Positions 17,922-38,554 of a stretch of 40,991 bases of DNA are shown here, one piece after another. A program made the position numbers and the translations under genes. Location: positions 1-40,991 of the IMG/VR virus record IMGVR_UViG_3300034062_002239; one strand, 5' to 3'. The DNA is from a virus. Positions within the stretch are counted from its first letter, which is position 1, and every line of letters begins with the position of its first letter. The notes under the pieces were generated by a model, which saw only the letters and a program-made list of their open reading frames with translations, made no database searches and had not been told where the DNA came from.

Positions 17922-17940
17922 CCCTATCAACATTGTAGGG
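17922..17940 (+). promoter_or_regulatory. Small hairpin overlapping the recombinase ribosome site
   Basis: CCCTA (17922-17926) pairs with TAGGG (17936-17940) around a nine-base loop. The 3' arm holds the GGG of the likely ribosome site GGGTGA for the ATG at 17949, so folding could dampen recombinase translation. There is no T-run, so it does not look like a terminator. Confidence 0.35.
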
Positions 17941-17948
17941 TGATCAGT

Positions 17949-18749: not shown

Positions 18750-18825
18750 TGGTCTGTAGCTCAGTCGGTAGAGCAGGTGACTGTTAATCACCGGGTCGCA
18801 GGTTCGAGCCCTGCCAGGCCAGCCA
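18750..18825 (+). tRNA. tRNA-Asn (GTT)
   Basis: Acceptor TGGTCTG pairs with CAGGCCA. The anticodon stem GGTGA/TCACC encloses CTGTTAA with anticodon GTT. The T arm is GCAGG TTCGAGC CCTGC. Discriminator G and CCA are encoded. It begins at the base after the SWIM gene stop. Confidence 0.95.
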
Positions 18826-18848
18826 CTTTTTTGAAATGGGGATGTGAC

Positions 18849-19331
18849 ATGAACGCTTTTGATAAGGCTACAAAGCGACTCGCAATCGCCCTTGGTTCAG
18901 CAGGTGAAAACCTTGTCAAGGAATGTTTTGAGCATGATGGTTGGACTGTAGAAAAGTCCGCTGATCCATTTGATGCGGCTAAGGATTTGGTGGCCAAGCA
19001 CCCTGTTCATGGTGTTGCCACTATTGAGGTCAAGACGCAGGTGCCTTGGGTAACCAAGAATGCGCTTACCATCAAGCCCGATCAGCTTAAGAAGTGCAGC
19101 GGTGTTGATTATCTTGTCTTTGTGACAGTTCCACCGCAAAAGCACTCGTATCACTACGGCGGTTGGGTTATGAAGGTCGACCCCAAGCAGATGAAGTTTG
19201 ATATTCATCAGGCTAATGGTGGTCGAGAAATGGTGGCTATTCCGATTGATCAGCCTGCTGTTGAACTCTGGCGTAAAATCCCGAATAATGACATTGTTAA
19301 TTTGCAAAAGCTTACTATCTCTAACTGGTAA
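18849..19331 (+). CDS. PD-(D/E)XK nuclease-like protein
   Basis: 160 residues from ATG 18849; the frame runs open back into the tRNA-Asn gene, but this ATG is the first one outside it. The layout is GENLVKECFEHDGWTVEKSADPFDAAKDLVA followed by VATIEVKTQV, matching the core helix-strand-Asp and E-V-K of PD-(D/E)XK folds such as Holliday-junction resolvases and restriction-type nucleases, with Asp in DAAKD and Glu-x-Lys about 20 residues later. Only this core is recognisable. Substrate and cleavage activity are unknown. It is coupled to the next small gene by TAATG and lies in the tRNA cluster. Confidence 0.55.
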   Translation: MNAFDKATKRLAIALGSAGENLVKECFEHDGWTVEKSADPFDAAKDLVAKHPVHGVATIEVKTQVPWVTKNALTIKPDQLKKCSGVDYLVFVTVPPQKHSYHYGGWVMKVDPKQMKFDIHQANGGREMVAIPIDQPAVELWRKIPNNDIVNLQKLTISNW

Positions 19332-19522
19332 TGTATTTTAGGCATCAGCATCCAAGACGTGGCGAAGTAGTTGAGGTTACATTCCCAGATGGGCCTCAAC
19401 GAGCCAAAATTATTTGGATATATGGTGATAATCAATATCTTTTGCAGTTTTACGACCCTCTTTATTATAAATGTGCTAGATATGACATCATAGATAGCTC
19501 CATGATTAAAACGCTGGGTTAG
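19331..19522 (+). CDS. Small basic protein, possibly SH3/KOW-like
   Basis: 63 residues, starting within the stop of the preceding gene (TAATG). The sequence RRGEVVEVTFPDGPQRAKIIWIYGD has the alternating strand-turn pattern of a small SH3-like or KOW-like barrel. No known family is recognised. Its stop codon TAG lies inside tRNA-Thr, at tRNA positions 8-10, so mRNA and tRNA overlap by ten bases. Confidence 0.5.
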   Translation: MYFRHQHPRRGEVVEVTFPDGPQRAKIIWIYGDNQYLLQFYDPLYYKCARYDIIDSSMIKTLG

Positions 19523-19587
19523 CACAACGGTAGTGCAACGGTTTTGTAAACCGTAGGTTGGGGGTTCGAATCCCTCACCCAGCACCA
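19513..19587 (+). tRNA. tRNA-Thr (TGT)
   Basis: Acceptor GCTGGGT/ACCCAGC. Anticodon stem ACGGT/ACCGT with loop TTTGTAA, anticodon TGT. T arm GGGG TTCGAAT CCCT. CCA is encoded. The first ten bases overlap the upstream CDS. Confidence 0.93.
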
Positions 19588-19591
19588 GTTT

Positions 19592-19663
19592 GCGGGGTTC
19601 GTATAAGGGCTATTACCTCAGTCTTCCAAACTGATGATAGGAGTTCGATTCTCCTACCCCGCT
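19592..19663 (+). tRNA. tRNA-Gly (TCC)
   Basis: Acceptor GCGGGGT/ACCCCGC. Anticodon stem TCAGT/ACTGA around CTTCCAA, anticodon TCC. T stem GGAG/CTCC around TTCGATT. No CCA is encoded, so it needs CCA addition. Confidence 0.92.
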
Positions 19664-19682
19664 TTAATTTGAGAGGGCTAAA

Positions 19683-20249
19683 ATGCTTACATCCGCCAGA
19701 AATAAATTTCAAATAGCATTTCATGCTGAGAAGGCGGATAAGCATATTCACGGGTATCACAAATATTATAATCAAGTTATTGGAAACTCAACAATAACTT
19801 CGGCTCTGGAGATAGGTGTCTTTGAAGGCGCATCTCTAAAGGCTTGGAAAAGAATCTGGCCGAATGCAGTAATCGAAGGTATGGACAATGTTGCAAGATA
19901 TGATGCATCATTAAAAGATGAATTTAAAATTCATGAAATGAGTTCGACTGATACTGTTATAGACAAAGAATATGACATCATTATTGACGATGGTGATCAT
20001 CACTGGTTGACGCAATTAGCAACATTCAAAAACTATTACGATAAGGCAAAAAAGTTTTATGTGATAGAAGATGTCATGGGTCTTCATGCATATGATAGAT
20101 TGATAAAATATCTACCAAAAGATGCACTTGAAATATCACAAACATTCACCTCCAGAGGGAGAAAGGTGAAGTTTTCAGTGGGTGATATTACCGAAGGTAC
20201 GATAGATTATATCGACAATTATCGATATATCATTTTCGACAAAAGATAG
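19683..20249 (+). CDS. SAM-dependent methyltransferase (macrocin-O-methyltransferase/CmcI-like)
   Basis: 188 residues after GAGAGGG. Motif I is ALEIGVFEGASLKAWKRIWP (about 40-60), the E-x-G-x-F/x-G-G/A-S variant found in CmcI and macrocin-type O-methyltransferases. It is followed by an acidic residue in EGMDN and the metal/substrate-type IIIDDGDHHWLTQL (about 99-112). FYVIEDVMG follows. These enzymes methylate hydroxyls on sugars or antibiotics. The AT-rich composition and position between tRNAs and a reverse-strand gene suggest an inserted accessory gene. Substrate unknown. Confidence 0.75.
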   Translation: MLTSARNKFQIAFHAEKADKHIHGYHKYYNQVIGNSTITSALEIGVFEGASLKAWKRIWPNAVIEGMDNVARYDASLKDEFKIHEMSSTDTVIDKEYDIIIDDGDHHWLTQLATFKNYYDKAKKFYVIEDVMGLHAYDRLIKYLPKDALEISQTFTSRGRKVKFSVGDITEGTIDYIDNYRYIIFDKR

Positions 20250-20250
20250 A

Positions 20251-20907
20251 TTAGTTAACCCACTCCACAGGGATCGGTTGCTTCGGCTTTGTCGGGAACA
20301 TAAAGTCCTCGATGTGATGAATTCTGCGATTTCTTGTCGCATCTGGGTGACCGATACCCATCAGTAGAAGCGGGCGATTCTTGATACCCATTTCTTTCTG
20401 TACTTCATCAGTTAGAAAGCAGGTGCAGCAACCTGTTGCATAGCCCATCATTGATGCTGTCAGATTTAGATAACCTGCAGCAACACCAATGGCCATCATT
20501 CTATCTTTTTCAATTAGCTTTATGTCAGACGGCTTTGCATTACCAGAAACCATATCGATGACCTGCTCATTTCGACCAGCATCTTCAGCCTTGGACAGAT
20601 CCAGATGTTCCTCAAATACGATTAGCAGATTTGCAAGAACCTGTGCATTTGTTGTGTATTCTGTCTGATCGCGCGTATTGCCGTGCTTGACAACAAATCC
20701 CTTAGTGTGAGAGTGAATGCGCTCAATCAGATCGCGGTTTGTCACAAAATGCAGCTTGTAGAATGCAATATTTTGCTTGCTAGGGCATTGAGTAGCCGCA
20801 ATCATTAGTGTGTCCAAATCGTCCTGAGATATAACTTTTTCCAAATCCCAGTTGCGTTGACAATGTTGGCTCTTGAAAATCGACTTTTTTATGGCTACAT
20901 TGTCCAT
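20251..20907 (-). CDS. Nitroreductase-family flavoprotein
   Basis: 218 residues, leftward, ending one base from the rightward methyltransferase end (tail to tail). The N-terminal RNWDLEKVISQDDLDTLMIAATQCPSKQN gives the FMN phosphate-binding Arg/Ser region. IGVAAGYLNLTASMMGYATGCCTCF (about 145-169) is the conserved helix and glycine turn. LLLMGIGHPD matches the C-terminal G-x-G-x-P block. Family members are NAD(P)H-dependent, FMN-binding oxidoreductases acting on quinones, nitroaromatics or flavins. A TATAAATA motif 34 bases upstream on this strand suggests late expression. Phage role unknown. Confidence 0.85.
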   Translation of the reverse strand: MDNVAIKKSIFKSQHCQRNWDLEKVISQDDLDTLMIAATQCPSKQNIAFYKLHFVTNRDLIERIHSHTKGFVVKHGNTRDQTEYTTNAQVLANLLIVFEEHLDLSKAEDAGRNEQVIDMVSGNAKPSDIKLIEKDRMMAIGVAAGYLNLTASMMGYATGCCTCFLTDEVQKEMGIKNRPLLLMGIGHPDATRNRRIHHIEDFMFPTKPKQPIPVEWVN

Positions 20908-20934
20908 TATATGCCCCTATAAGCTAATTTGCCC

Positions 20935-20963
20935 TTGACATATTTATATAGAAGTGATACATA
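20935..20963 (+). promoter_or_regulatory. Promoter for tRNA Ser-Ala-Leu cluster
   Basis: TTGACA at 20935-20940 preceded by TTGCCC, with a weak -10 (TACATA at 20958-20963, spacing 17). It lies just upstream of three tandem tRNAs and the structured RNA. The -10 is poor, so the call rests mainly on the -35 and position. Confidence 0.45.
20941..20948 (-). promoter_or_regulatory. T4-like late promoter TATAAATA for nitroreductase
   Basis: An exact TATAAATA on the minus strand, 34 bases upstream of the nitroreductase ATG, immediately beside the plus-strand TTGACA of the divergent tRNA promoter. Confidence 0.6.
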
Positions 20964-20973
20964 TACGTGTATT

Positions 20974-21063
20974 GGAAGGGTGGCCGAGTGGTTTAAGGCT
21001 CTAGTCTTGAAAACTAGCGTGGGTTGATCCCCACCGTGAGTTCGAATCTCACCCCTTCCGCCA
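20974..21063 (+). tRNA. tRNA-Ser (TGA)
   Basis: Acceptor GGAAGGG/CCCTTCC. Anticodon stem CTAGT/ACTAG with CTTGAAA, anticodon TGA. A long class II variable arm (GTGGG...CCCAC) and encoded GCCA 3' end are present. Confidence 0.95.
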
Positions 21064-21071
21064 AGTTTTGT

Positions 21072-21144
21072 GGGGAATTAGCTCAGCTGGTAGAGCGACG
21101 GCATTGCAAGCCGTAGGTCAGCGGTTCGAACCCGCTATTCTCCA
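21072..21144 (+). tRNA. tRNA-Ala (TGC)
   Basis: Acceptor GGGGAAT/ATTCTCC contains the G3-U70 wobble that defines tRNA-Ala. Anticodon stem ACGGC/GCCGT with ATTGCAA, anticodon TGC. T arm GCGG TTCGAAC CCGC. Discriminator A; CCA is not encoded. Confidence 0.95.
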
Positions 21145-21147
21145 TTT

Positions 21148-21224
21148 GCCTGTGTAGCCCAACCGGTAGAGGCGGCAGATTTAGGTTCTGTTCAGTGTAG
21201 GTTCGAATCCTATCACAGGTACCA
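21148..21224 (+). tRNA. tRNA-Leu (TAG) with short variable region
   Basis: Acceptor GCCTGTG/CACAGGT with a G1-U72 wobble. The anticodon arm GCAGA TTTAGGT TCTGT closely resembles bacterial tRNA-Leu(UAG). T arm GTAGG TTCGAAT CCTAT. CCA is encoded. The variable region is only about five bases, unlike class II leucine tRNAs. Confidence 0.85.
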
Positions 21225-21695: not shown

Positions 21696-22139
21696 ATGCG
21701 TGGCATTCTAGCTGTCATTATGGTCGTGACTGCAAGTTTTGCTCATGCTAGTGAATTAATTCATTCATTCCATTCACCATCGTTTAGTGGCGTGGGTTAT
21801 AGTTCCCACGCCCTAACGATATATCAGCTTGAGCAATCGGCTCGGCAACGTCAAGAAGATCGTAGGCGTCAAGAGGCTGCGGCTGCACTTAGAGCCGAGC
21901 AGAATAGCCCTGGTAATCAGTTTACACAGGCCTTTCAGTCTCTTGTTTATGCACAGCTGGCTAAGAATCTATCCGACCAGCTATTCGGTGAGAATCCACA
22001 AAACAACGGCACTATGACTTTCAGCAACGTAACCATTGGGTGGGTGCGTAGTGGGAGCGAAGTTGCTATGACTATAACAGATAGAGCAACCAATTCAGTC
22101 ACAACCATAACGGTACCGATAGGAGCATTCGCATTCTAA
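21696..22139 (+). CDS. csgF: CsgF-like curli assembly protein
   Basis: 147 residues, ribosome site GGAG. A signal peptide (MRGILAVIMVVTASFAHA) is followed by a mature N-terminus HSFHSPSFSG that parallels the FRNPNFGG segment of E. coli CsgF, the part that inserts into the CsgG pore. Then NQFTQAFQSLVYAQL parallels NFTQAIQSQILGGL, and MTITDRATNSVTTITV parallels LNVTDRKTGQTSTIQV. An additional Arg/Glu/Gln-rich helix (about 48-68) lies between. CsgF forms a second constriction in the CsgG channel and couples secretion to nucleation of amyloid at the cell surface. It is first in a five-gene operon and directly upstream of csgG. Confidence 0.9.
   Translation: MRGILAVIMVVTASFAHASELIHSFHSPSFSGVGYSSHALTIYQLEQSARQRQEDRRRQEAAAALRAEQNSPGNQFTQAFQSLVYAQLAKNLSDQLFGENPQNNGTMTFSNVTIGWVRSGSEVAMTITDRATNSVTTITVPIGAFAF
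22121..22135 (+). promoter_or_regulatory. Ribosome site and likely ATT start of csgG
   Basis: AGGAG (22121-22125) lies seven bases before ATT at 22133, which overlaps the csgF stop. Starting here gives a full lipoprotein signal (M-L-R-A-W-L-F-V-M-L-I-F-L-L-P-G-C). No ATG, GTG or TTG exists in this frame between the in-frame stop at 22082 and ATG 22157, and starting at 22157 leaves only eight residues before the lipobox Cys. Confidence 0.55.
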
Positions 22140-22156
22140 GAGCATGGCTCTTTGTC

Positions 22157-22912
22157 ATGTTGATATTTCTTCTTCCGGGATGTTCATTGATAAACCAAAC
22201 AACTGATTTACTTCAAACAGAGCCTGAGCAAATCAGGCCTGCACCTGATGAATTGCGTCCACCAAAGAATGGTGTGATTACTGTTGCAGTCTATCGCTTC
22301 GCTGATCAGACAGGTCAGCGCAGATATTCAGATCGTATCGCATCACTTAGCTCGGCTGTGACGCAAGGTGCAGACACATATCTAATACAAGCATTACAAT
22401 CAGTCGGCAATGGACGTTGGTTCCGTGTGGTAGAGCGCGGTGGTATTGAAAATCTATTGCGCGAGAGACAGATCATAAGACAGATGCGCGAGCTACACGA
22501 AGGCCCAAATGCTCGACCTCTTGCGCCACTTCTATTTGCAGGTATTATAATTGACGGTGGTATCATTGGATATGATACAAATATATCAACTGGTGGTGCA
22601 GGTGCTCGCGCATTTGGTATTGGTGGATCAACTGAATACAGAACCGACCTAGTAACTGTCACTATGAGAGCTATATCAGTGAATACTGGTGAGATACTGG
22701 TATCTATAACTACGACAAAACGAATACATAGTTACGTTGACAGACTTGGTGTGCTGCGCTTTGTAAGCGGCGGCACCGTTGGGTTAGAGGGTGAGGTCGG
22801 CACCTCTACCAACGATAGCGTAAATCTTGCCATACAATTGGCTATACAATCTTCTGTGCGTGAGATGATAGAGGAAGGGGTTCGCAAGGGACTCTGGGAG
22901 TATCAACCTTAA
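22157..22912 (+). CDS. csgG: CsgG-like outer-membrane curli secretion channel (lipoprotein)
   Basis: 251 residues from ATG 22157; a start at ATT 22133 is likely because it restores a normal lipoprotein signal before L-P-G-C. Close parallels to E. coli CsgG run throughout: VITVAVYRFADQTGQ (KIFVSVYNIQDETGQ), GRWFRVVERGGIENLLRERQIIR, IDGGIIGYDTNISTGGAGAR followed by AFGIG, VNTGEILVSITTTKRI, and LEGEVGTSTNDSVN, ending EEGVRKGLWEYQP. CsgG is a nonameric lipoprotein pore that exports curlin subunits without energy input. The constriction loop region NISTGGAG and the beta-barrel hairpins appear intact. It pairs with the adjacent csgF. CsgE, the usual specificity factor, is not seen. Confidence 0.93.
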   Translation: MLIFLLPGCSLINQTTDLLQTEPEQIRPAPDELRPPKNGVITVAVYRFADQTGQRRYSDRIASLSSAVTQGADTYLIQALQSVGNGRWFRVVERGGIENLLRERQIIRQMRELHEGPNARPLAPLLFAGIIIDGGIIGYDTNISTGGAGARAFGIGGSTEYRTDLVTVTMRAISVNTGEILVSITTTKRIHSYVDRLGVLRFVSGGTVGLEGEVGTSTNDSVNLAIQLAIQSSVREMIEEGVRKGLWEYQP

Positions 22913-22927
22913 TAACAGAGGGAAGAC

Positions 22928-23584
22928 ATGCGTAGGTTTCTAACGTTCGCCATGATGCTGCTTCTGGCCGCACCGGTGGGCGCCCAGACCAACAGCATAC
23001 ACATAGATCAAATCGGGTCATCTAACGTGATTGATATCACGCAAGCTGGTTCTGGTAATCGCATAGGTAGCTCATTGACACCCAGCACGATAACTGGTTC
23101 TGGCAATGCTGTCACGATAGTTCAGACAGGTGCTACCAATCAGCTCGATTATAATATCAATGGCGGTACAAATACTGTATCGCTGACATACACAGGTGAC
23201 GGGAATATCGCAACTCTCAATTGCGGTGGTAATAACGTAACATGCTCGGATGCATCTGTCACACATACAATCACGGGTGATGACAATACGATTACCAACA
23301 CAATTACTGGGTCCGATATCACAAACACACTAACTGTGACTGGTAATAATAACACGGTAACAACCACACAGTCAAGCAATAATGCAACTCAGACAATGAC
23401 ACTAACAGGCAATAGCAATACTGTCACGGCCTCACAAGCTGGTGCTGGTGTACATACTCTAACAATGAATGTCACAGGCGACTCTAACACATACAACATA
23501 GCACAATCTGGTGCAGTATCAAACTCACTAACAATCAATACAACTGGATCTAGCAATACTGTAAGTGTGACACAAGGAAACTAA
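22928..23584 (+). CDS. Curlin-like repeat protein (amyloid subunit candidate)
   Basis: 218 residues, ribosome site AGAGGGAAG. A signal peptide (MRRFLTFAMMLLLAAPVGAQ) precedes an array of imperfect repeats of about 20 residues, consensus G-x-x-N-x-(I/V/L)-x-(I/V/L)-x-Q/T, for example QIGSSNVIDITQAGSGN and TGNSNTVTASQAG. The spacing N-x5-Q with flanking Gly matches curlin repeats of CsgA and CsgB, though many repeats replace Gln with Thr. One repeat pair contains two Cys (CGGNNVTC), which could form a disulfide. This is the likely secreted cargo of the CsgG/CsgF channel just upstream. It could form a fibre or cap on the infected cell, but that is inference. The stop overlaps the FecR start. Confidence 0.82.
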   Translation: MRRFLTFAMMLLLAAPVGAQTNSIHIDQIGSSNVIDITQAGSGNRIGSSLTPSTITGSGNAVTIVQTGATNQLDYNINGGTNTVSLTYTGDGNIATLNCGGNNVTCSDASVTHTITGDDNTITNTITGSDITNTLTVTGNNNTVTTTQSSNNATQTMTLTGNSNTVTASQAGAGVHTLTMNVTGDSNTYNIAQSGAVSNSLTINTTGSSNTVSVTQGN

Positions 23585-24519
23585 TGTTTATATTTCTGCT
23601 AGTCTTGCTGCTACCTTCTATCGCACTTGCAAATGTGGGTGCGATAGTTCAGCAGCAAGGTTCAGCAGTTCAAATACGTCGTGGCCAAGACAATTTACCT
23701 GGTGGTGTGAATGCGACAGTAAACATGAATGATGCGATTGTTACAGGTCTATCATCATTACAATTACGCTTTCAAGATAATACAACAGCGGCCGTAACAG
23801 AGAATAGTCGCTTTGTTATCGATGACTTTGTGTATGACCCAAACCGAGGTGCTGGTCGTTTGAATGTGCGAGTATCGATGGGTACCGTGCGATATGTGTC
23901 TGGGCAGATAGCACGAAACAATCAGCAAAGTGTGCAAGTAAATACGCCGACAGCCGTTATAGGTGTGCGCGGCACAGATTTCTTCATGACAGTTGACGAA
24001 TCAGGTCAGAGCCTTGTTGTGCTAGTGCCTAGCTGCAATCAGCAAGGCAACTGTTATACTGGTAAGATAAGCGTGACGAATGATGGTGGTACTGTCGAGA
24101 TGGATCAGCCGTTTCATGCGACATATGTACCAAGCGCAACCGTTGCACCAACGCAGCCTGTGCAATTAAGCATATCAATATCAGATATCAATAACAATCT
24201 TATCATCGTTCGCCCACCACAGATTATGCTGCTTATGCAAGAGTCGCAGCAGCAACAGCAAACAGAAGCGCCACCACCAGCACCTATACCAATTCAGATA
24301 CAACAGACCGAACCTCGGCGCGCAGCAAGAAAGGTTGGTGAGCTTGTTGTAGTTGAAGATGGGCAAAATACTATAGCCAGTAGAGACTCTGCAGGTCATA
24401 CGGCAGTTGTCAGAATGGTTGGTGGTAATTCTCGTGTGACTGTCAATCACGATGGCAATATAGCATCAGAGACAATTGGTCCGGGATCTAATATAGTTAA
24501 TATAACACAGAGAAGGTGA
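23584..24519 (+). CDS. FecR-domain secreted protein with curlin-like tail
   Basis: 311 residues, coupled by TAATG. A signal peptide (MFIFLLVLLLPSIALA) is followed by a FecR domain: GAIVQQQGSAVQIRRG, MNDAIVTGLSSLQLRFQDNT, VSMGTVRYVSGQ and NTPTAVIGVRGTDFFM (about 18-140). A Gln/Pro-rich linker (about 215-245) leads to a C-terminal piece with GGNSRVTVNHDGN and GPGSNIVNITQ, which fits the curlin repeat G-x-x-N-x5-Q. FecR domains act in the periplasm as structural or signalling modules and often neighbour CHASE2 receptors. The tail suggests physical contact with the repeat protein encoded upstream. Confidence 0.82.
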   Translation: MFIFLLVLLLPSIALANVGAIVQQQGSAVQIRRGQDNLPGGVNATVNMNDAIVTGLSSLQLRFQDNTTAAVTENSRFVIDDFVYDPNRGAGRLNVRVSMGTVRYVSGQIARNNQQSVQVNTPTAVIGVRGTDFFMTVDESGQSLVVLVPSCNQQGNCYTGKISVTNDGGTVEMDQPFHATYVPSATVAPTQPVQLSISISDINNNLIIVRPPQIMLLMQESQQQQQTEAPPPAPIPIQIQQTEPRRAARKVGELVVVEDGQNTIASRDSAGHTAVVRMVGGNSRVTVNHDGNIASETIGPGSNIVNITQRR

Positions 24520-24521
24520 CC

Positions 24522-26567
24522 ATGAAAAAGTATATTCTGTCCATTCTGATTCTGGTCGCACTAGTTGCCCTTAGAGCATATGACCCCTGGCCAGTGCAGG
24601 TAGCACGTCTAAAATACTTTGACTTTCTTGAGCGTCAGCAACAGGTTGTCAATGATGAGGGTATTGCTCTTGTCAATATCGATGAAGAGGCACTAAGAAA
24701 GCATGGGCAGTGGCCATGGCCGCGCGATGTGATGGCTCGATATATTAATGACATTATGGATCGAGGTGCATCCGTTGTAGTCGCACCCATACTATTTTCT
24801 GAGCAAGATAGATCGGGTAAGGATGCTGATCTAGAGCAGGCGCTACGCAATCACCCAGTTGTGCTAGCACAGGTCCCGACTACGCAGGTGCGCGAACCAT
24901 ATGCACGACCCAGAGGCTCCGCGCTCATTGGTCCACCGATACATGATGTGCTACCGTCATGGCCTGGTGCAATTCCACCTCTACCACAGTTTGCCGAAGC
25001 CGCTGCAGGTGTGGGTATGATCGCAACTGTACCCGAGCCAGACGGTGTGGTACGTCGCAGCCCAATGCTTGTCGCGGTGGGTGATAGGTTCTACCCATCG
25101 CTTGTGCTTGAGACATTGCGTGTCATATCAGGCGAGACTAGCTTTCAAGTAAGATCAAATGAGCTAGGTGTAGAGATTGTACGCATACCAGGCCAGCCTC
25201 TAATGTACACAGATCAGAATAGCCGTCTGTGGCCTGTGCGCTCATTTAACTATCAGTCTCACAAGATTACTGATCTACCAGACGATCTTGATGGTATGAT
25301 CGTGATACTATCACTCACGGCTGAAGGCTTTAGCAACCCTATCGCAACAAGTCATGGTGAGATGCTGCCGAATACAGTTATCGCAACAGAATTATCATCT
25401 GTGTTAAATCAGATGTTCGTTGTGAGAGAAGCTGAGGCTGACGTTTACGAATTAGCATTCACATTGCTATTTGGTATTGTGATGGTGTTTCTTGCTCTCA
25501 AAGCGAGACTTTCTATTGGCGGTGTGCTAGCTCTGGTCCCGATTGTGGGTATCGCGTATGCATCAATGCACATGCGCGCAGAATACATGCTGCTATATGA
25601 TGCAGTCTTCCCAATTGCTGCATTGCTGCTTGTATTTGGGTCGGCTGCATTCTCGCGCGCTCTAGAAGAGTTTCGCCTGAAGCAACAGATCAAGAAACAA
25701 TTCGGTACGTATCTGTCACCAGCAATGGTTGAGAAGCTACAACAGAACCCCGATCTATTGAAGCTTGGTGGTGAGGAGCGCGAATTGTCGATCATGTTTA
25801 CCGACGTGCGTGGCTTCACAGCTATCTCCGAACACTACGGTAAAGATGTGCAAGGCCTGACTAAGATCATGAATCGTTACATGACTGCAATGACAGCATC
25901 AATACTTCGCAATGAAGGTACACTTGACAAGTACATCGGCGATGCACAGATGGCATTCTGGAATGCACCACTTGATGACAAAGATCATGCGAAGAATGCA
26001 GTTAAGACTATGCTAGAAATGTTAGACAACCTAAAGGAGTTCAATGATGAAATCGCAAAAGAAGGTGTCCCGGCGTTTGGTATGGGTCTCGGTATTAATA
26101 CTGGCACTGTTGTCGTTGGGAACATGGGCAGCGATCAACGCTTCGACTATACGTGCTTGGGTGATTCTGTCAACCTTGCCTCAAGACTTGAGGGACAATC
26201 TAAACCATATGGAGTCAGCAACGTCATCGGCCCAATCACTTATCGACAAATTAGAGACGAATACCTCTGCCTTGCCCTCGATACCATTGCGGTAAAGGGT
26301 AAGAAAGAAGGTGTTGACATCTATACGGTAATCGGTAAGCATGATGCTGCTTATCTAAAGGTCGATCTAGACTCGCACACGAACATGATGCTGGCCTATA
26401 GAAAGCGCAGATTTGATGATGCAATCTTTTATGCAAAGCGGCTGAGGGGTTGCTTTGGTGGTAAGATGGATGGCTATTATGAAATGTGGGTTGAGCGATG
26501 CCAAGAGCTAAAGGCAGCAAATCTACCTGACGGTTGGGACGGTGTTTTTAGGGCAAGTAGCAAATAA
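24522..26567 (+). CDS. CHASE2-domain transmembrane class III adenylate cyclase
   Basis: 681 residues from ATG 24522 after AAGGTGACC. One N-terminal membrane helix (about 4-20) is followed by a periplasmic CHASE2 sensor (about 25-305; GIALVNIDEEALRKHGQWPWPRDVMA), three further helices (about 310-385), then a cyclase domain. Metal Asp residues are in IMFTDVRGFTAISE (about 428) and YIGDAQMAFW. The adenine-selecting Lys (DKYIGD) and Asp (FDYTCLGD) are present, as are the transition-state Asn and Arg in DSVNLASRLEG. All catalytic residues for cAMP synthesis are intact. CHASE2 with FecR is a known bacterial pairing. As the last gene of the curli-like operon it may report envelope state to the cell as cAMP. 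Confidence 0.92.
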   Translation: MKKYILSILILVALVALRAYDPWPVQVARLKYFDFLERQQQVVNDEGIALVNIDEEALRKHGQWPWPRDVMARYINDIMDRGASVVVAPILFSEQDRSGKDADLEQALRNHPVVLAQVPTTQVREPYARPRGSALIGPPIHDVLPSWPGAIPPLPQFAEAAAGVGMIATVPEPDGVVRRSPMLVAVGDRFYPSLVLETLRVISGETSFQVRSNELGVEIVRIPGQPLMYTDQNSRLWPVRSFNYQSHKITDLPDDLDGMIVILSLTAEGFSNPIATSHGEMLPNTVIATELSSVLNQMFVVREAEADVYELAFTLLFGIVMVFLALKARLSIGGVLALVPIVGIAYASMHMRAEYMLLYDAVFPIAALLLVFGSAAFSRALEEFRLKQQIKKQFGTYLSPAMVEKLQQNPDLLKLGGEERELSIMFTDVRGFTAISEHYGKDVQGLTKIMNRYMTAMTASILRNEGTLDKYIGDAQMAFWNAPLDDKDHAKNAVKTMLEMLDNLKEFNDEIAKEGVPAFGMGLGINTGTVVVGNMGSDQRFDYTCLGDSVNLASRLEGQSKPYGVSNVIGPITYRQIRDEYLCLALDTIAVKGKKEGVDIYTVIGKHDAAYLKVDLDSHTNMMLAYRKRRFDDAIFYAKRLRGCFGGKMDGYYEMWVERCQELKAANLPDGWDGVFRASSK

Positions 26568-27262: not shown

Positions 27263-27685
27263 ATGGCCCTCCTACCCAGCTACTTCACAACCACTCGCAC
27301 ATCTAAGCGCAAGCCTAAGACTAAGACAAAGGCTCAGCTTGCTGCTGCGGCAGAAACTGCGAAGCTACTGGCTAAGGTTGGCTATCGGGGTGTGGCCAAG
27401 CCCGGTAAGGCGCCTGCTTTGGGTGCAGGAGATCGGAGGTTCGAATCCTCTCGCCCCGACCATTCTCTTCCTACATCAGATGTGATCCCTGGTGGTGCAT
27501 TTGCAAAGCGTGACATTCTGAATGACTGGCGGTGGCAAGAAGGTGCTGCCGAGTCCGAAGATGTTGTCCGTGCTATGCGCGAGAAGGCGTCACGTGTTCA
27601 GCCATTATATAACAAGGGTGGTCTGCAGGTTGCATTGCCTAGCGATGATCCTGCCACTCTCGGTTCGCGCTCTCGGAGGCTCTAA
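27263..27685 (+). CDS. Phage protein with a tRNA-Pro gene inside its reading frame
   Basis: 140 residues from ATG 27263 with GAGG upstream. Residues 1-40 (MALLPSYFTTTRTSKRKPKT...AETAKLLAKVG) and 68-140 (PTSDVIPGGAFAKRD...DWRWQEG...PLYNKGG...LGSRS) look like the two halves of a conserved phage protein of unknown role. Residues about 41-67 are the translation of a complete tRNA-Pro (27386-27462) on the same strand. The frame stays open through it. If the transcript is processed by RNase P, the message would be cut. It may be a real dual-use segment, or the two halves may be remnants split by a tRNA insertion. Coupled by TAATG to the next gene. Confidence 0.6.
   Translation: MALLPSYFTTTRTSKRKPKTKTKAQLAAAAETAKLLAKVGYRGVAKPGKAPALGAGDRRFESSRPDHSLPTSDVIPGGAFAKRDILNDWRWQEGAAESEDVVRAMREKASRVQPLYNKGGLQVALPSDDPATLGSRSRRL
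27386..27462 (+). tRNA. tRNA-Pro (TGG), embedded in a CDS
   Basis: Acceptor CGGGGTG/CGCCCCG with C1-G72 and A73 as in bacterial tRNA-Pro. Anticodon stem CCTGC/GCAGG with loop TTTGGGT, anticodon TGG. T arm GGAGG TTCGAAT CCTCT. CCA is encoded. 77 bases, entirely within the open frame 27263-27685. Confidence 0.93.
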
Positions 27686-30354: not shown

Positions 30355-31218
30355 ATGATTCTGGTTGATCTAAACCAGGTGATGATCAGTAATTTGATGG
30401 TGCACCTGGTACACAATAAGCAAGTGGTAGATGAAAACCTCATCCGCCACATGGTTCTCAATAGCCTGCGCAGCTATCGGCAGAAGTTTTCGCATCAGTT
30501 TGGTGATCTTGTCATCTGTTGCGATGACAAGCGGTATTGGCGTCGTGAAGTGTTTCCACACTACAAGGCCAATCGCAAGAAGGACCGCGATGCATCTAAC
30601 ATTGACTGGCCGACGCTGTTCGAGGCGATGGCTAAGATCAAGGACGAACTGCGCGAGCATATGCCTTACAAGGTTATTCAGGTAAATCGCGCAGAGGCCG
30701 ACGATGTTATCGCTGCGCTCTGTCACTATCATGGGCGCTTTATCAATAGCGATGCCAACGAAAAGATTCTGATTCTTTCTGGCGACAAAGACTTCGCACA
30801 ACTCCAGAAGTATGCGAATGTGCACCAGTATGCGCCGGTGCAGAAGAAGATGATCCCGATTGACAACCCTGAGCGATTCCGACGCGAGCATATCATGTCT
30901 GGCGACCGTAGTGACGGCGTGCCTAACTTTCTGACAGAAGATGATGCGCTTGTCTCTGGTCGTCGTCAGCGCCCTCTGCCGCGCGCTAAGATTGATGAGT
31001 GGTGCAAGATGGAGCCTGATCAGTTTTGCGATGATGCGATGATGCGTGGTTATCGTCGCAATCAGATGCTTGTCGATCTTGACATGGTGCCTGAAGATAT
31101 TCAGAAGGATGTCATCAATACCTTTGAGACTGCAACACCTGCGTCCAGAACCGCGATGATGCCGTATTTTATGGCGAAGCGTCTGCGCCAGCTTACAGAC
31201 AGTATCAGTGACTTCTAA
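30355..31218 (+). CDS. T4 RNase H-like 5'-3' nuclease
   Basis: 287 residues from ATG 30355 with GGAGAAGG upstream. It has the FEN/RNase H acid residues in order: ILVDLNQ (Asp near 5), VICCDDKRYWRREVFPHYKANRKK (about 55-80, the Y-K-x-x-R-K primer-junction loop), NRAEADDVIAAL (about 113-124), ILSGDKDFAQLQKY (about 139-152) and SGDRSDGVPNF (about 181-191) for the helix-hairpin motif. It removes RNA primers and flaps during lagging-strand synthesis. The length is close to T4 Rnh (305). Grouped with a small gene behind it and transcribed from its own promoter. Confidence 0.88.
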   Translation: MILVDLNQVMISNLMVHLVHNKQVVDENLIRHMVLNSLRSYRQKFSHQFGDLVICCDDKRYWRREVFPHYKANRKKDRDASNIDWPTLFEAMAKIKDELREHMPYKVIQVNRAEADDVIAALCHYHGRFINSDANEKILILSGDKDFAQLQKYANVHQYAPVQKKMIPIDNPERFRREHIMSGDRSDGVPNFLTEDDALVSGRRQRPLPRAKIDEWCKMEPDQFCDDAMMRGYRRNQMLVDLDMVPEDIQKDVINTFETATPASRTAMMPYFMAKRLRQLTDSISDF

Positions 31219-31232
31219 AGGAGGAAAGATTA

Positions 31233-31655
31233 ATGCCGACTAAGAGCCTCGCTCAAATCGTGAGTGAGATTGAGAAACAAAAGACCAAGGCCGGGCAGGT
31301 CAAGGTCATTCTTGAAAATGACAGCGAGGCGCTGCGTATGGTATTTGAATTCACGCATGACCCATTTCTGCAATGGCTTGTGCCTGACACTGACCCGCCG
31401 TATAAGCCTCTCGATGATAGCCTTGATCAGGAAGGACGCTTTCATAAGGAAATCAAGAGGCTTGTGTATTTTACCAATACACCTGATGGTCTAGCCACAA
31501 ACCGCATGAGGCGCGAGCAGCTATTTGTTCAGCTACTTGAGATGATTGATCCTGCCGATGCAAAGCTGCTGCTGCGTATGCGTCGCAAGGATATCAAGGT
31601 GATGGTGGGTGCGATCAAGGAAGCTTATCCGAAGATGACGGGGCACTGGAAGTGA
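31233..31655 (+). CDS. Small helical phage protein (DUF6433-like)
   Basis: 140 residues after the strong ribosome site AAGGAGGAAAGATTA. It is helical, beginning SLAQIVSEIEKQKTKAGQVKVILEN, with FTHDPFLQWLVPD in the middle and LLEMIDPADAKLLLRMRRKDI and VMVGAIKEAYPKM at the end. This pattern is shared with a small family found beside replication genes in T4-like marine phages (DUF6433-like). Function unknown. It overlaps the next gene by GTGA. Confidence 0.72.
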   Translation: MPTKSLAQIVSEIEKQKTKAGQVKVILENDSEALRMVFEFTHDPFLQWLVPDTDPPYKPLDDSLDQEGRFHKEIKRLVYFTNTPDGLATNRMRREQLFVQLLEMIDPADAKLLLRMRRKDIKVMVGAIKEAYPKMTGHWK

Positions 31656-33977: not shown

Positions 33978-34006
33978 TTGACATAGAGCCTTCTATCTGA
34001 TATTAT
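33978..34006 (+). promoter_or_regulatory. Promoter for the small-paralogue array
   Basis: TAGCCTTTGACA with TTGACA at 33978-33983, spacing 17, and TATTAT at 34001-34006, then GGTAGGAGG before the ATG at 34026. The TAG is the stop of the oxygenase gene. Confidence 0.8.
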
Positions 34007-34025: not shown

Positions 34026-34463
34026 ATGTCAAACGACGCAAACACCACAATTATTTCTATCTCTAACCCGCCAGGCACTGGCTGGGAAGATATCTTCGTG
34101 AGCAGCACTAGCTCAATTGGCCCTTACGTTGCAAATCCAATTCAGACATCATCGATGGTGCTCTTGATTGAGACATTCAAGTATGATGCTGCCTCAGCAA
34201 CGATGTTTGGATATATTCCAGACTATCGGCCTTTTGAGGGTCAGCCTGTGTCATACCCAACCAATGTGGAATTGATGCGCGCGGGCGACAATCATGTTCG
34301 CTTGATTGGTAATTCTATTGTTCATTCGTCTGTTGATGTTCAATTGGGCGAAGAGTTTGCGATGTATTATGATGGCAAGCAGTCTGTGTACATTCGTCTG
34401 TACCCGACACAAAAGCTGCGTGACTTCTGGTTTGCAATCTATAGAACCAAGAAGCAATTCTAA
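34026..34463 (+). CDS. Small-paralogue family member 1 (YD...TMF)
   Basis: 145 residues after GTAGGAGG. It contains FKYDAASATMFGY (about 51-63), the divergent form of the LYD-x-x-(S/T)-(R/K/Q)-T-F-Y signature seen in six further genes up to 38554. Its C-terminus is YIRLYPTQKLRDFWFAIYR, matching the family's terminal Y-x-x-x-Y...W-x-x-x-R block. No signal peptide, membrane helix or catalytic motif. First gene of the promoter at 33978. The family is unknown to me. Confidence 0.7.
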   Translation: MSNDANTTIISISNPPGTGWEDIFVSSTSSIGPYVANPIQTSSMVLLIETFKYDAASATMFGYIPDYRPFEGQPVSYPTNVELMRAGDNHVRLIGNSIVHSSVDVQLGEEFAMYYDGKQSVYIRLYPTQKLRDFWFAIYRTKKQF

Positions 34464-34819
34464 TGATTACGATTGAGGGCCAGATCGTGGATGACCCAGA
34501 ACCTCTTACCGTCGCATCGATACCAACAATCGACACCAGAGATTGTCTGTATGATGCTGTTACGAAATCGATGTATGGATATTATCACATCTTAACGTGT
34601 CAGCATCTTGCGATACAGAGCCACGTCACTGGTGCGCGCCTTCTTGTCGAGAAGAGTATGAGTATTGATGCCACACTTCATGAGCAAAAGGTGCGAACCT
34701 ATGTGCCTCTCAATCTAGGCAAAGACAATCCGTTTGATAGGTTGTTTCTCTTTCTGGACAGGGAGAGTATGTTGCGCGCATTCTCTCGCTACAATCGTTG
34801 GTCGAGAGTGAAAGAATGA
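34463..34819 (+). CDS. Small-paralogue family member 2
   Basis: 118 residues, coupled by TAATG. Family signature DCLYDAVTKSMYGYYHI begins near residue 27. The end, RLFLFLDRESMLRAFSRYNR, fits the terminal block with Phe in place of Trp. The middle is a distinct variable part with an HEQKVRTYVPLNL strand. Same size class and order of elements as its neighbours. Function unknown. Confidence 0.68.
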   Translation: MITIEGQIVDDPEPLTVASIPTIDTRDCLYDAVTKSMYGYYHILTCQHLAIQSHVTGARLLVEKSMSIDATLHEQKVRTYVPLNLGKDNPFDRLFLFLDRESMLRAFSRYNRWSRVKE

Positions 34820-35172
34820 GCGACGATTATCAAGGCACGATGTTGTGTGATCGCGGGTGCTTTCTGTATGATGAGGCCTCGCGCACGTTCTATGCTGCGC
34901 TTGCTGATAATGAGGGCCCACCAAAGGCAATTGGTATACCTAGCGCATCACCGCAGCTACCACCAAAGTTTTTCTATATCAATGAAGCGGCAGCCTGGGC
35001 AACTGATCGTTGGCAGACAACACCAAATGCGACTGTCTATACCACGCATGAAATACATCCGTATTATATTCTACTCTATAATGATATGGAAGTTATGCGT
35101 CAGCACTGGAAGATTTGTCGTATGCTAGCCGGCAAACACGTTGGTGCTACCACTAATTATAGTATTATCTGA
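34816..35172 (+). CDS. Small-paralogue family member 3
   Basis: 118 residues from ATG 34816, coupled by ATGA. Signature CFLYDEASRTFYAAL (about 15-29) and terminal block YYILLYNDMEVMRQHWKICR (about 91-110) are both clear, separated by a Pro-rich variable segment (GIPSASPQLPPKFF). The last 48 bases overlap the end of the opposing PAAR gene, so the two transcripts are antisense there. Function unknown. Confidence 0.7.
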   Translation: MSDDYQGTMLCDRGCFLYDEASRTFYAALADNEGPPKAIGIPSASPQLPPKFFYINEAAAWATDRWQTTPNATVYTTHEIHPYYILLYNDMEVMRQHWKICRMLAGKHVGATTNYSII

Positions 35173-35439
35173 CGTATATTCATCACCAATACGCCCCATA
35201 CCTTTGCCGTTGACAAACACTGTCGCGGAAAATGTAGAAAGCGCAGACTCATCTGGGCCACACCCACTTGCATTGTGTGGCCCAACCTTGTCGCCCTGAC
35301 GAACTACAGCTATACCATTAATGAATACGTTTGGGCTACCCTCACCAGTAACAACCTCTACAGGGTTCGCGCAATTACGCCCAACACCTGTGCGAGACAA
35401 TACACGATCCGACCCACTAGCTCTAGCTGCTGCTGGCAT
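35125..35439 (-). CDS. PAAR-domain tail-spike tip protein
   Basis: 104 residues, leftward. The sequence has the PAAR pattern: an N-terminal AAARASGSDR, VEVVTGEGSPNVFINGIAVVRQGDKVGPH, CGPDES, then the second half TVFVNGKGMGRIGDEYTSDN and ISGSTNVFAG. His and Cys residues near 54-60 are placed for the metal that stabilises the pointed tip. PAAR proteins cap the central spike of contractile tails (T4 gp5.4) and type VI systems. It is a late structural function, lying antisense among small accessory genes, and is coupled to the upstream leftward gene. Confidence 0.85.
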   Translation of the reverse strand: MPAAARASGSDRVLSRTGVGRNCANPVEVVTGEGSPNVFINGIAVVRQGDKVGPHNASGCGPDESALSTFSATVFVNGKGMGRIGDEYTSDNTIISGSTNVFAG

Positions 35440-35963
35440 CAGATACCTCCACTAACTATTGACTTGAATGCAGTCAGGGCCACTGGTAGATTCCAATAGA
35501 CGTATTGCACAGGCTGCACGGTGACAGTACCGTTCAACACAAATCGATACGTGATAGGAAAATCAGATTTGGTTGTTGGTAGATTCCACGCGGTGATTGC
35601 TCTGTATGCTGGGACAGACGATACAGCTACAGTTGTGAGACTACCATCTTCCAGCAATAGCTGATAGGACTCTCCCGGTAATGCATTGGTTATCGTACCA
35701 GAGACGCGCAACACATATGCGCTTGGGTTCGTGCTTATCACAGTAAATGATGCAGTTGCATACCCACCAAGCAACGATGGTGTCAATGTTGTGATTGGTA
35801 CAATCGCTGGCGTCGGTGCAGCATCATCGTCCAAAACAAATGTTAGGTCCATAGAGAATGCTTGCCCTTGATATACAGAAGGCAAAGCTAATGGCCCTGA
35901 TGCATACAGGTCATTTGGTATCGTCGGCACTGTGAGATTGGATAGAGATATGGTAACTGCCAT
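35439..35963 (-). CDS. Beta-rich structural protein paired with PAAR
   Basis: 174 residues from ATG 35963; GTG 35993 is possible but would overlap the divergent promoter. Low-charge, Thr/Val/Leu/Pro-rich sequence with strands such as YVLRVSGTITNALPG and YQLLLEDGSLTTVAVS, resembling an immunoglobulin-like or fibre-type beta protein. It is coupled to the PAAR gene (overlap TGATG), which suggests a baseplate or tail-tip part. No known family is recognised. Divergent from the small gene at 36017. Confidence 0.6.
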   Translation of the reverse strand: MAVTISLSNLTVPTIPNDLYASGPLALPSVYQGQAFSMDLTFVLDDDAAPTPAIVPITTLTPSLLGGYATASFTVISTNPSAYVLRVSGTITNALPGESYQLLLEDGSLTTVAVSSVPAYRAITAWNLPTTKSDFPITYRFVLNGTVTVQPVQYVYWNLPVALTAFKSIVSGGI

Positions 35964-35982
35964 GCAAGTATATAGATAGCCT

Positions 35983-36011
35983 TTGCCATTCACATCAAAC
36001 TATGATAGGAT
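35983..36011 (+). promoter_or_regulatory. Weak promoter of the TAGCC(A/T)TTGACA set
   Basis: TAGCCTTTGCCA with the -35 TTGCCA at 35983-35988 and TAGGAT at 36006-36011 (spacing 17). It would restart rightward transcription after the antisense PAAR pair. One mismatch in the -35 and a weak -10. Confidence 0.5.
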
Positions 36012-36016
36012 ATAGC

Positions 36017-36193
36017 ATGACAAGAAAAGTTGAACCACTCGTGATTCGCCACATTGCAGATGCAATCGCTGATCTACACAAGGCGCGCGACAAGACGACT
36101 TGTGGCTCCGTCGAAGATCATATCACAAATGCAATCGAACAACTTGTGCTGGCCATTGAGTGTTCAATGATCGGAGAGACTGATGATACCTGA
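36017..36193 (+). CDS. Small helical protein
   Basis: 58 residues from ATG 36017; an in-frame ATG at 36002 lies in the promoter. Helical, with VIRHIADAIADLHKARDKTT and ITNAIEQLVLAIECSM, fitting a two-helix hairpin. No family recognised. It overlaps the next small gene by 11 bases. Confidence 0.55.
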   Translation: MTRKVEPLVIRHIADAIADLHKARDKTTCGSVEDHITNAIEQLVLAIECSMIGETDDT

Positions 36194-36377
36194 CAACACG
36201 CCGTGGTCCGACGATCTGGTTCGCGCATTGAATGAGCGGCAGAAGGACTATCGATATCACCCATACACTTGCCCAGGTGATCACAAGGCTTGCGCCAATC
36301 AGCGCGAGCTAATCGCAACGACAAATGGTTGGGTATGCGCCTGCGGTAGGTATACGCAGAAATGGGCTCACGTATAA
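36183..36377 (+). CDS. Small Cys/His-rich putative zinc-binding protein
   Basis: 64 residues. The C-terminal half has CPGDHKAC, then WVCACGRYTQKWAH: four Cys and two His able to form a zinc site. The N-terminal part, WSDDLVRALNERQKDYRYHPYT, is helical. The layout is common among short phage proteins of unknown role. Coupled to the next gene by TAATG. Confidence 0.6.
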   Translation: MIPDNTPWSDDLVRALNERQKDYRYHPYTCPGDHKACANQRELIATTNGWVCACGRYTQKWAHV

Positions 36378-36667
36378 TGGCAAATCCACATTACTATTCT
36401 GCTGTCAAAGATACTCTGTACGATAGCCCATCAAGGACGTTCTATCTGTATATTGATACAGCAAAGCGGCCATGGGGTGTTCCGAATGAAATCTATCTGA
36501 ATAATTCAGAGACACTACGAGTGTGGATATTTGAATTGCAGAAAGATGTGATCGACGAACAGTATGTGTATTCACATATCCGCCCAGGTGATGGTACGTA
36601 TTATCTAAAAGTATATGATGACAAGGATCATTATATGAAAGCGTGGAACGAATGTCGCTCGGGCTAG
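36377..36667 (+). CDS. Small-paralogue family member 4
   Basis: 96 residues from ATG 36377. Signature DTLYDSPSRTFYLYID (about 12-27) and terminal block YYLKVYDDKDHYMKAWNECR (about 75-94) make this the shortest and clearest member. The variable middle is EIYLNNSETLRVWIFELQKD. Overlaps the next family member by 16 bases in another frame. Confidence 0.72.
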   Translation: MANPHYYSAVKDTLYDSPSRTFYLYIDTAKRPWGVPNEIYLNNSETLRVWIFELQKDVIDEQYVYSHIRPGDGTYYLKVYDDKDHYMKAWNECRSG

Positions 36668-37011
36668 ACAAGTTGGGATTGATCCAAGTGGATCAAATAA
36701 CCGATACGGTAAGCGTATCTAATGGGTCAACTCATACGTATCTTGGTGTCAGTTCAAAAGATGTGCTGTATGATAAGGCCTCGCAGACGTTCTATATGCT
36801 GCTTAATAAGACCAAGCCAGACATTGCTCCTCGCTGCATTGTAATTAGCGCACCTACCGAGAGTTGGTTGTTTCAATTTTATCATCGCGCTATCGCATGT
36901 ACTGTTTATCTAAGAAAGCTTGAGAAGCGCGCACCATATTGGTTGCGAGTATATGATGACGAAAACATCTATAAGCAAGGATGGATCCATTGTCGCAAAC
37001 ATTCAAACTGA
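36652..37011 (+). CDS. Small-paralogue family member 5
   Basis: 119 residues from ATG 36652; GTG 36643 is an alternative. Signature VLYDKASQTFYMLLNK (about 38-53) and terminal block YWLRVYDDENIYKQGWIHCR closely match member 4, showing recent duplication. A longer N-terminal segment (LGLIQVDQITDTVSV) precedes the signature. Overlaps the next gene by 31 bases. Confidence 0.7.
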   Translation: MSLGLDKLGLIQVDQITDTVSVSNGSTHTYLGVSSKDVLYDKASQTFYMLLNKTKPDIAPRCIVISAPTESWLFQFYHRAIACTVYLRKLEKRAPYWLRVYDDENIYKQGWIHCRKHSN

Positions 37012-37247
37012 TCTGGCATGATACTCCCGACGATATCATCGCGCAACATGAACAGACTGTGCGCGATGATCTGACGACTTGGGTTGAGGGTGATGGTGTT
37101 AAGCCAAGCCAGCTCATCTTTCATCTTGTATTCCTGACGAAGGATTACAATGGCCCAAACATTATCGTATGGGGTGAGAAAGATGACGATGAATCACTTC
37201 ATTGCCAGTATGAGGCTACAATGAAATGGGAGCGCGATAATGAATGA
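36981..37247 (+). CDS. Small unknown acidic protein
   Basis: 88 residues, ATG 36981 just after AAGCAAGG. It contains TFKLIWHDTPDDIIAQHEQTVRDDL, LIFHLVFLTKDYNGPNIIVWGEKDDDE and a charged end. It lacks the LYD/TFY signature, so it is not clearly part of the paralogue family although it lies inside the array. Overlaps the deaminase gene by eight bases. Confidence 0.55.
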   Translation: MDPLSQTFKLIWHDTPDDIIAQHEQTVRDDLTTWVEGDGVKPSQLIFHLVFLTKDYNGPNIIVWGEKDDDESLHCQYEATMKWERDNE

Positions 37248-37713
37248 TATGAAGTTTACCACAGCTGGCCAGATGATGCGTCCAGCAATCTGGGATGAAC
37301 GATTCCTAGAACTCGCAAAGCACATCGCGCAATGGAGCAAGGATCCATCAACTAAGGTCGGCGCTGTCATCGTGCGCCCAAACCGCACCATTGCAAGCGT
37401 TGGGTACAATGGCTTCCCGCGCGGAGTCACAGACGATGACACGCGATTGAATGATCGCCCATACAAGTACGCGATGACTGTTCATGCTGAGGCTAACGCG
37501 ATACTGTCAGCGAATGAAAGGATTGATGGATGCACACTATACGTCACACCACTGACGCCATGTTCGTCGTGCGCTTCTATGATCATTCAATCTGGGATCA
37601 CGCGCGTCGTTGCGTATATGCCACATCAGCCAGAGCATTGGGCTGATAGCTTTGCGATTGCGCGAATGATGTTTGAAGAAGCTGGTGTGGACGTTGTGAT
37701 TAAGACAGTATGA
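37240..37713 (+). CDS. Deoxycytidylate (dCMP) deaminase
   Basis: 157 residues from ATG 37240 with GGGAG seven bases upstream. The zinc-dependent deaminase motifs are H-A-E-A-N-A-I-L (about 84-91) and P-C-S-S-C-A (about 107-112), supplying His, catalytic Glu and two Cys. The N-terminal WDERFLELAKHIAQWSKDPSTKVGAVIV and RPNRTIASVGYNGFPRG fit phage and bacterial dCMP deaminases. It converts dCMP to dUMP, the substrate of ThyX encoded at 9818. It is embedded in the small-paralogue array and coupled to the next gene by ATGA. Confidence 0.92.
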   Translation: MNDMKFTTAGQMMRPAIWDERFLELAKHIAQWSKDPSTKVGAVIVRPNRTIASVGYNGFPRGVTDDDTRLNDRPYKYAMTVHAEANAILSANERIDGCTLYVTPLTPCSSCASMIIQSGITRVVAYMPHQPEHWADSFAIARMMFEEAGVDVVIKTV

Positions 37714-38048
37714 CCATATCAACCTATGTAAACCCAAATACGACGCAGGTAATAATGCCAGTAACACGTGATCATGTCGTTGTTAAAGTTGACGACACTT
37801 TGTATGATGCGGAGTCAAAAACATTCTATGTGGCTTTGTCACGAGTGACAAATGATCTTAGCGCGCCGGAGTTGATCAATCTTATCAATGATAGGACTGG
37901 CAATGTGCGTGTTTTTAATAAGCGATCATCCGGCCTAGAAGGTTATTTTGTGTATAGCCATACTGGCGACGGTTATCATGGATATACAATGAAAGCTTTC
38001 ACGTTTGACGAAGAAATGAAAGCCGCTTGGAAAAAGATTAGATCATGA
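37710..38048 (+). CDS. Small-paralogue family member 6
   Basis: 112 residues, coupled by ATGA to the deaminase. Signature TLYDAESKTFYVALSRV (about 30-46) and terminal block YTMKAFTFDEEMKAAWKKIR (about 92-111) are clear. The middle contains a variable segment LINDRTGNVRVFNKRSSG. Coupled by ATGA to the next member. Confidence 0.7.
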   Translation: MTISTYVNPNTTQVIMPVTRDHVVVKVDDTLYDAESKTFYVALSRVTNDLSAPELINLINDRTGNVRVFNKRSSGLEGYFVYSHTGDGYHGYTMKAFTFDEEMKAAWKKIRS

Positions 38049-38554
38049 TATTAACTGGCAGACCTGATCATATCATGGTAAAGTTTCATTATAATACACC
38101 AAAGGATGAGGCAAATGATGATTTGATTCTGTATGATCAGACCACGCGCACGTTTTTCATTCACACTTCGCAATTAGAACCTGCTAAATTTTCGGGTAAT
38201 GTGGGTAATATCTTTCATCTGAAGATAGAAAATCTCAAAACAAAAGCTGAATGGCAGTTTGTATATGAAATCACACGAGAATATAAGTCAAAATGTGGTG
38301 GTGTGATACGATATAGAGAATACACCCATACTCATCTAGATCATGGCGAGCAGCGTTATTATGCACATCTGTATGCTACACGCCTTATGCTTGAAACAGC
38401 ATGGTCGGATGTTAGAAAAGATCAAGCTGAAAATGCTTTGATTCAGATTCTATCTGATTCCTTGAAAAATGATATTGATAAGCATATCATATCTGCAATG
38501 AAAAGCCATGTGGTGTTGAATGAAAGAGACATGGTATTCCTATCTCAGGAATGA
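38045..38554 (+). CDS. Small-paralogue family member 7 (long)
   Basis: 169 residues. Signature ILYDQTTRTFFIHTS (about 28-42). A longer middle with EWQFVYEITREY and a His-rich YTHTHLDHGEQRYY leads to YYAHLYATRLMLETAWSDVR, matching the terminal block. A C-terminal helical extension of about 45 residues (AENALIQILSDSLKNDIDKH) is unique to this copy. Overlaps the small charged ORF at 38520. Confidence 0.68.
   Translation: MILTGRPDHIMVKFHYNTPKDEANDDLILYDQTTRTFFIHTSQLEPAKFSGNVGNIFHLKIENLKTKAEWQFVYEITREYKSKCGGVIRYREYTHTHLDHGEQRYYAHLYATRLMLETAWSDVRKDQAENALIQILSDSLKNDIDKHIISAMKSHVVLNERDMVFLSQE

Follow-up and report, generated by a model that had tools for sequence, protein, structure and literature searches.

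Seven small paralogous genes at a variable locus of a T4-like phage: a possible exchangeable set of binding proteins

Closest described systems

Regions of variable small genes are a known type of locus in T4-like phages. The closest place to that of the array described here is found in Methylophilales phage Melnitz, Ochrobactrum phage OC and Rhizobium phage RHph_I1_18, where a gene pair encoding a 5'-3' exonuclease/flap endonuclease and a 140-aa protein is kept and is followed by small unrelated genes. The stretch of Melnitz between the flap endonuclease and PhoH lies in the same syntenic place, downstream of this pair, but its small genes have no match to the family, whereas in our virus a single family fills the place. 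A different kind of precedent comes from Bacillus phage G, which carries a lineage-specific expansion of a zinc-ribbon family (PMC7824862). Both are cases of a large phage in which a single small domain has many paralogous copies; however, the domain is another one, and the passage on that expansion does not describe a compact exchangeable array (PMC7824862). A limited literature search found no prior description of the fold reported below or of its tandem exchangeable array.

The window (the whole 40,991-nt IMG/VR virus contig IMGVR_UViG_3300034062_002239, in which the array spans 34026–38554) encodes a primase, a ribonucleotide reductase, a 5'-3' exonuclease and a head-and-packaging virion protein, which place the virus among the T4-like phages. 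The relatives of its primase at 41–44% identity include cyanophages and Melnitz, and the virus lies near Melnitz and the pelagimyophage group. In the window and its relatives, the flap endonuclease and its 140-aa partner are followed by three more conserved genes and then by the array. Like the hypervariable accessory loci of T4-like phages, this locus sets changeable small genes between flanking genes that are conserved.

Elsewhere, the window carries seven tRNA genes (Asn, Thr, Gly, Ser, Ala, Leu and Pro; 18750–21224 and 27386–27462), a resolvase-like gene recognized by eye that adjoins the first of them (17940–18575), and a GIY-YIG homing-endonuclease-like ORF (13707–14159) whose best PHROG, phrog_447, is labelled NAD synthetase and is probably a mislabelled family. 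A curli-type block (21696–26567), also present in relatives, encodes CsgF (Pfam E 1.5e-22), CsgG (6.6e-51), a curlin-repeat protein (7e-8), a FecR-domain protein and a CHASE2-cyclase, i.e. a predicted nucleotide cyclase. CsgF and CsgG have been published for pelagimyophages and Melnitz, in which CsgA and CsgB are reported missing (PMC7029224, PMC9004378); the window does carry a curlin-repeat protein, as well as the predicted nucleotide cyclase.

Organization of the array

A preliminary description of this DNA proposed a tandem array of seven small genes, here g1 to g7 (Table 1). All seven reading frames are open and encode proteins of the sizes announced (96–169 aa). The genes are co-directional but not contiguous: they are interrupted by two minus-strand genes that encode a PAAR-motif protein and a 184-aa protein (35125–35993), by three small ORFs and by a dCMP/cytidine-deaminase-like gene. 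The latter is a stable neighbour of the array, with 98% identity in the relative G003.

Table 1. Features of the array and of its upstream anchor (window coordinates)
Feature	Position	Strand	Remarks
5'-3' exonuclease/flap endonuclease gene, syntenic anchor	30355–31218	+	PHROG 107, E 4e-50; upstream of array
Conserved 140-aa gene	31233–31655	+	pairs with flap endonuclease in Melnitz, OC and RHph_I1_18
Candidate promoter, sigma-70-like	33978–34006	+	TTGACA-17-TATTAT, TG before -10; immediately 5' of g1
g1, 145 aa, N-terminal extension	34026–34463	+	leave-one-out profile E 0.008; ortholog-only fold
g2, 118 aa, most divergent family member	34463–34819	+	LYDAVTKSMY; LFLFLDRESMLRAFSRYNRW; leave-one-out E 0.034
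g3, 118 aa	34816–35172	+	LYDEASRTFY ... YYILLYNDMEVMRQHWKICR; leave-one-out E 1.3e-8
PAAR-motif protein gene	35125–35439	-	PHROG 281, E 3.5e-22; antisense to g3 3' end
184-aa protein gene, uncharacterized	35439–35993	-	adjoins PAAR gene; same pairing in G001
63-aa ORF within array	36002–36193	+	conserved: 98% identity in three relatives
64-aa ORF	36183–36377	+	TAATG coupling to g4 at its end
g4, 96 aa, shortest family member	36377–36667	+	leave-one-out E 2.7e-15; modelled pLDDT 86.6
g5, 119 aa	36652–37011	+	leave-one-out E 2.6e-11; 16-nt overlap with g4
88-aa ORF, without family match	36981–37247	+	
dCMP/cytidine-deaminase-like gene	37240–37713	+	TVHAEANAI ... PCSSC motif, read by eye
g6, 112 aa	37710–38048	+	leave-one-out E 7e-11; internal ATG at 37755
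g6-g7 cassette	37754–38507	+	about 95% nucleotide identity with G001; surrounding genes 61–80%
g7, 169 aa, C-terminal extension	38045–38554	+	leave-one-out E 8e-6

The ATGA couplings previously noted occur at g2/g3, between the deaminase-like gene and g6, and at g6/g7. Couplings of the TAATG type are found at g1/g2 and before g4, and g4 and g5 overlap by 16 nt. By contrast, the several TTGACA-type promoters claimed at the same time reduce to one strong site, that upstream of g1. Since the promoter-like sites (13 in total) are not in excess over shuffled sequence (11.3 ± 3.7), this site is a candidate only.

The neighbourhood bears on what the proteins might do. One possibility is that they are minor proteins of the virion, or accessory ones of the baseplate or tail, whose diversification follows changes in the receptor or the tail tip: the PAAR and 184-aa genes lie within this array and also adjoin that of the relative G001. 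We consider this unlikely, because the PAAR genes run in the opposite direction, the array genes follow replication genes and are translationally coupled to the deaminase-like gene, and no structural PHROG matches the array proteins. The flap endonuclease and deaminase-like neighbours, together with the translational coupling, would suit regulators or adaptors of the replication, transcription or nucleotide machinery of the phage or its host, unrelated to defence, whose copies subfunctionalise. This second alternative is doubtful, as the core neighbours are near-invariant (dN/dS 0.01–0.05 for the exonuclease and the deaminase) whereas the array genes come and go, unlike what a core role would entail.

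Homology within the family and searches for relatives

The common ancestry of the seven copies was examined by leave-one-out profiles, each built from six copies and run against all ORFs of the window of at least 35 codons, the seventh copy being sought. In all seven cases, the left-out copy outranks every unrelated ORF, with E values from 2.7e-15 to 8e-6 for g3 to g7 and weaker ones (0.008 and 0.034) for g1 and g2. This recovery, well beyond chance, establishes the array family, of which g1 and g2 are the weakest members, and rules out a chance resemblance of motifs. These genes are seven diverged paralogs from a single family of small soluble proteins, and a common fold is predicted for two of the copies.

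In the signature first noted, LYD followed by TFY near the N-terminus, the TFY part is degenerate in g1 (KYDAASATMF) and g2 (LYDAVTKSMY). The middles, first described as varying freely, do vary in length and sequence but retain alternate hydrophobic or aromatic positions, a strand pattern. The copies share only about 20–30% identity, yet the core aromatic positions are kept. The conserved positions are hydrophobic or aromatic, along with D16 and R94 (g4 numbering), and include a near-invariant Trp; no catalytic-looking constellation is found among them. The members have no common charge (pI 5.0–9.3) and a negative average hydropathy, and reading their sequences by eye shows neither a membrane segment nor a signal peptide. 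As they are not strongly acidic, a DNA-mimic anti-restriction protein was ruled out.

The view that the family was an unrecognized one was borne out: no library model, PDB fold or INPHARED relative matches, and the profile searches returned no known characterized family. Pfam, PHROGs and NCBIfam contain no model for it (best E 0.008, for single members only and to unrelated families). PADLOC, which covers defence systems and not anti-defence proteins, gave no match either (best, g7 against a HEAT model, E 0.011). No relative was found by tblastn of g5, g6, a divergent member and the family consensus against the 50,697 phage records of INPHARED. In IMG/VR, scans with single members, the anchor gene and the alignment recovered family members from no viruses other than close relatives of ours.

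Predicted fold and structural relatives

The model of g4, built from an alignment with 26 family members (pLDDT 86.6, pTM 0.77), has seven strands and a C-terminal helix, and the signature residues form its LYD/TFY hairpin and its helix Trp/Arg. The model of g1, whose alignment was limited to its own orthologs, is weak (pLDDT 52), but its element order is that of g4. A Foldseek search of BFVD with g4 gave five matches at E ≤ 0.001, all uncharacterized phage proteins, and the top six neighbours of the g1 model include all five. That both models retrieve the same neighbours provides independent support for the shared fold; the two copies that were folded thus agree in element order and in structural neighbours.

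Among these neighbours, A0A6J5MAY0, A0A6J5MC06, A0A6J5MEH0 and A0A6J5MCT5 from uncultured Caudovirales phage have a predicted fold like that of g4 (E 1.5e-7 to 3.5e-4; TM up to 0.74). The g1 model retrieved these four together with A0A6J5M8I3, another uncharacterized protein of uncultured Caudovirales phage. Sequence identity to these five is only 9–23%, and, at a guess from their accession numbers, they might belong to one genome. Similar predicted folds are found in A0A7S5QY57 of Rhizobium phage RHph_Y68 (E 2e-4; 12–14% identity) and, more weakly, in A0A2L0V0N2 of Agrobacterium phage Atu_ph07 (E 7e-3; 9% identity). These matches suggest that the family reaches beyond what sequence detects, to a phage of Rhizobium and, less clearly, to a jumbo phage of Agrobacterium; alternatively, the likeness to these two proteins could be due to fold convergence. 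The family profile gave only noise against bases 1–450,000 of the 490,380-base genome of Atu_ph07, and the 87-aa structural match from this phage was not identified in the 490,000 bases of that genome that were read.

In the PDB, no match to g4 was found by Foldseek at E ≤ 0.001 (best E 0.7), and the best E by sequence profile was 0.03. The PH-like fold consists of seven strands and a C-terminal helix with a Trp, and the g4 model has both this element order and the near-invariant helix Trp. However, among the 50 PDB matches listed, the PH-like entries (Snx27 FERM and a talin chimera) have E > 1 and TM < 0.3. Membership in the PH/PTB/FERM-F3 group was therefore rejected for want of a structural match among those listed, despite the matching order of elements.

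Copy sets and evolution of the array

The window and its relatives contain eleven paralogous types (g1–g7 and x1–x4), each set counting 4 to 7 copies. The window has g1 to g7, G003 has g1, g2, g3 and g4, and L031 has g1, g2, g3 and g5. In the 155-kb genome G001, the set is g1', x4, x1, g6, g7, x2 and x3, and all members found fall in a single 5-kb stretch. The divergent x4 (profile E 0.03–0.8) was accepted on its matching motif order.

Other genes also differ between relatives at this locus. A calcineurin-like phosphoesterase gene (Pfam Metallophos 3.6e-11 in L031), absent from the window, lies with a 63-aa ORF in the array region of relatives (L031:11783–12520 and L010:15962–16723), the two being another exchangeable unit. 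G004 has an extra 238-aa gene (L021:8979–9695), resembling by eye a 2OG-Fe oxygenase, exactly between the conserved gene at 32958 and g1.

Between the window and G001, dS is 0.17 for g6 and 0.09 for g7 but 1.1–2.8 for their neighbours, and the edges of the low-divergence block are sharp (37754 and about 38507). These data point to a recent exchange of a g6-g7 cassette between lineages. The first 15 codons of g6 in the window, which precede the ATG at 37755, are similar to the beginning of x4 (at least 22 of 27 bases match; alignment score 38, against at most 26 for shuffles). The gene therefore has the look of a fusion made by a deletion, and its translation may really begin at the internal ATG.

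The array genes are under purifying selection. Their dN/dS between relatives is mostly 0.1–0.5 (one short comparison gives 0.74 and another 0.09), and no pairwise value exceeds 1; no positive selection was detected. The upstream neighbours mostly have values of 0.01–0.15, and the exonuclease and the deaminase 0.01–0.05; the PAAR gene and the gene at 36183, which lie beside array members, evolve fast too. The rapid diversification proposed from the seven copies thus takes the form of a fast but constrained divergence, combined with gene gain, gene loss and cassette exchange.

The variable copy number and the g6 deletion fusion might also be expected of near-dispensable duplicates that multiply as similar sequences recombine and that have little function under selection. 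This is very improbable, since frames are intact in all complete copies, dN/dS is well below 1 and the core aromatic positions persist across such divergent copies. Cassette exchange among close relatives would also fit superinfection exclusion, the copies acting against competing phages as allelic sets tuned to those that co-occur; this is improbable, the proteins having a negative average hydropathy and, as read by eye, neither membrane segment nor signal peptide.

A model for the array

We favour, with a probability of about 40%, the reading that the array is an exchangeable, host-directed inventory of non-enzymatic binding scaffolds. We infer binding scaffolds from the hydrophobic and aromatic nature of the conserved positions, the lack of a catalytic-looking set and the lack of a common charge, and a host-directed inventory fits the type of locus, the pattern of exchange and the purifying but fast evolution. 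The swapped and differing gene sets of the relatives suggest a putative toolkit aimed at the host, and the context makes a role in host takeover or anti-defence plausible, although the analysis revealed no target and no link to toxicity or defence.

The following model can be drawn. About seven beta strands capped by the C-terminal helix, with the LYD/TFY hairpin and the helix Trp/Arg, would form the scaffold, whereas the differences between copies, which sit in loops and terminal extensions, would determine specificity. Judging from the neighbouring genes, the proteins would be produced early to midway in infection. Acting as non-enzymatic binders, each would bind a different host protein, of defence or regulation, so that the set would make up an exchangeable inventory of host interactions. 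A broader version, in which this is a new phage binding-scaffold fold distributed among Melnitz/pelagimyophage-like phages and large Rhizobium and Agrobacterium phages, used as an exchangeable tandem library with each copy neutralizing a different host factor, is doubtful.

The locus type is known, but neither the fold nor its use in a tandem exchangeable array was found described in a limited search. Should the copies prove to be binders with targets of their own, built on a shared scaffold, the array would amount to a list of host targets for one group of T4-like phages. The scaffold, which has no solved homolog, would then become a new anchor for finding unknown host-takeover or anti-defence proteins beyond the reach of sequence searches. 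The exchanged cassettes supply natural gene combinations with which this could be tested.
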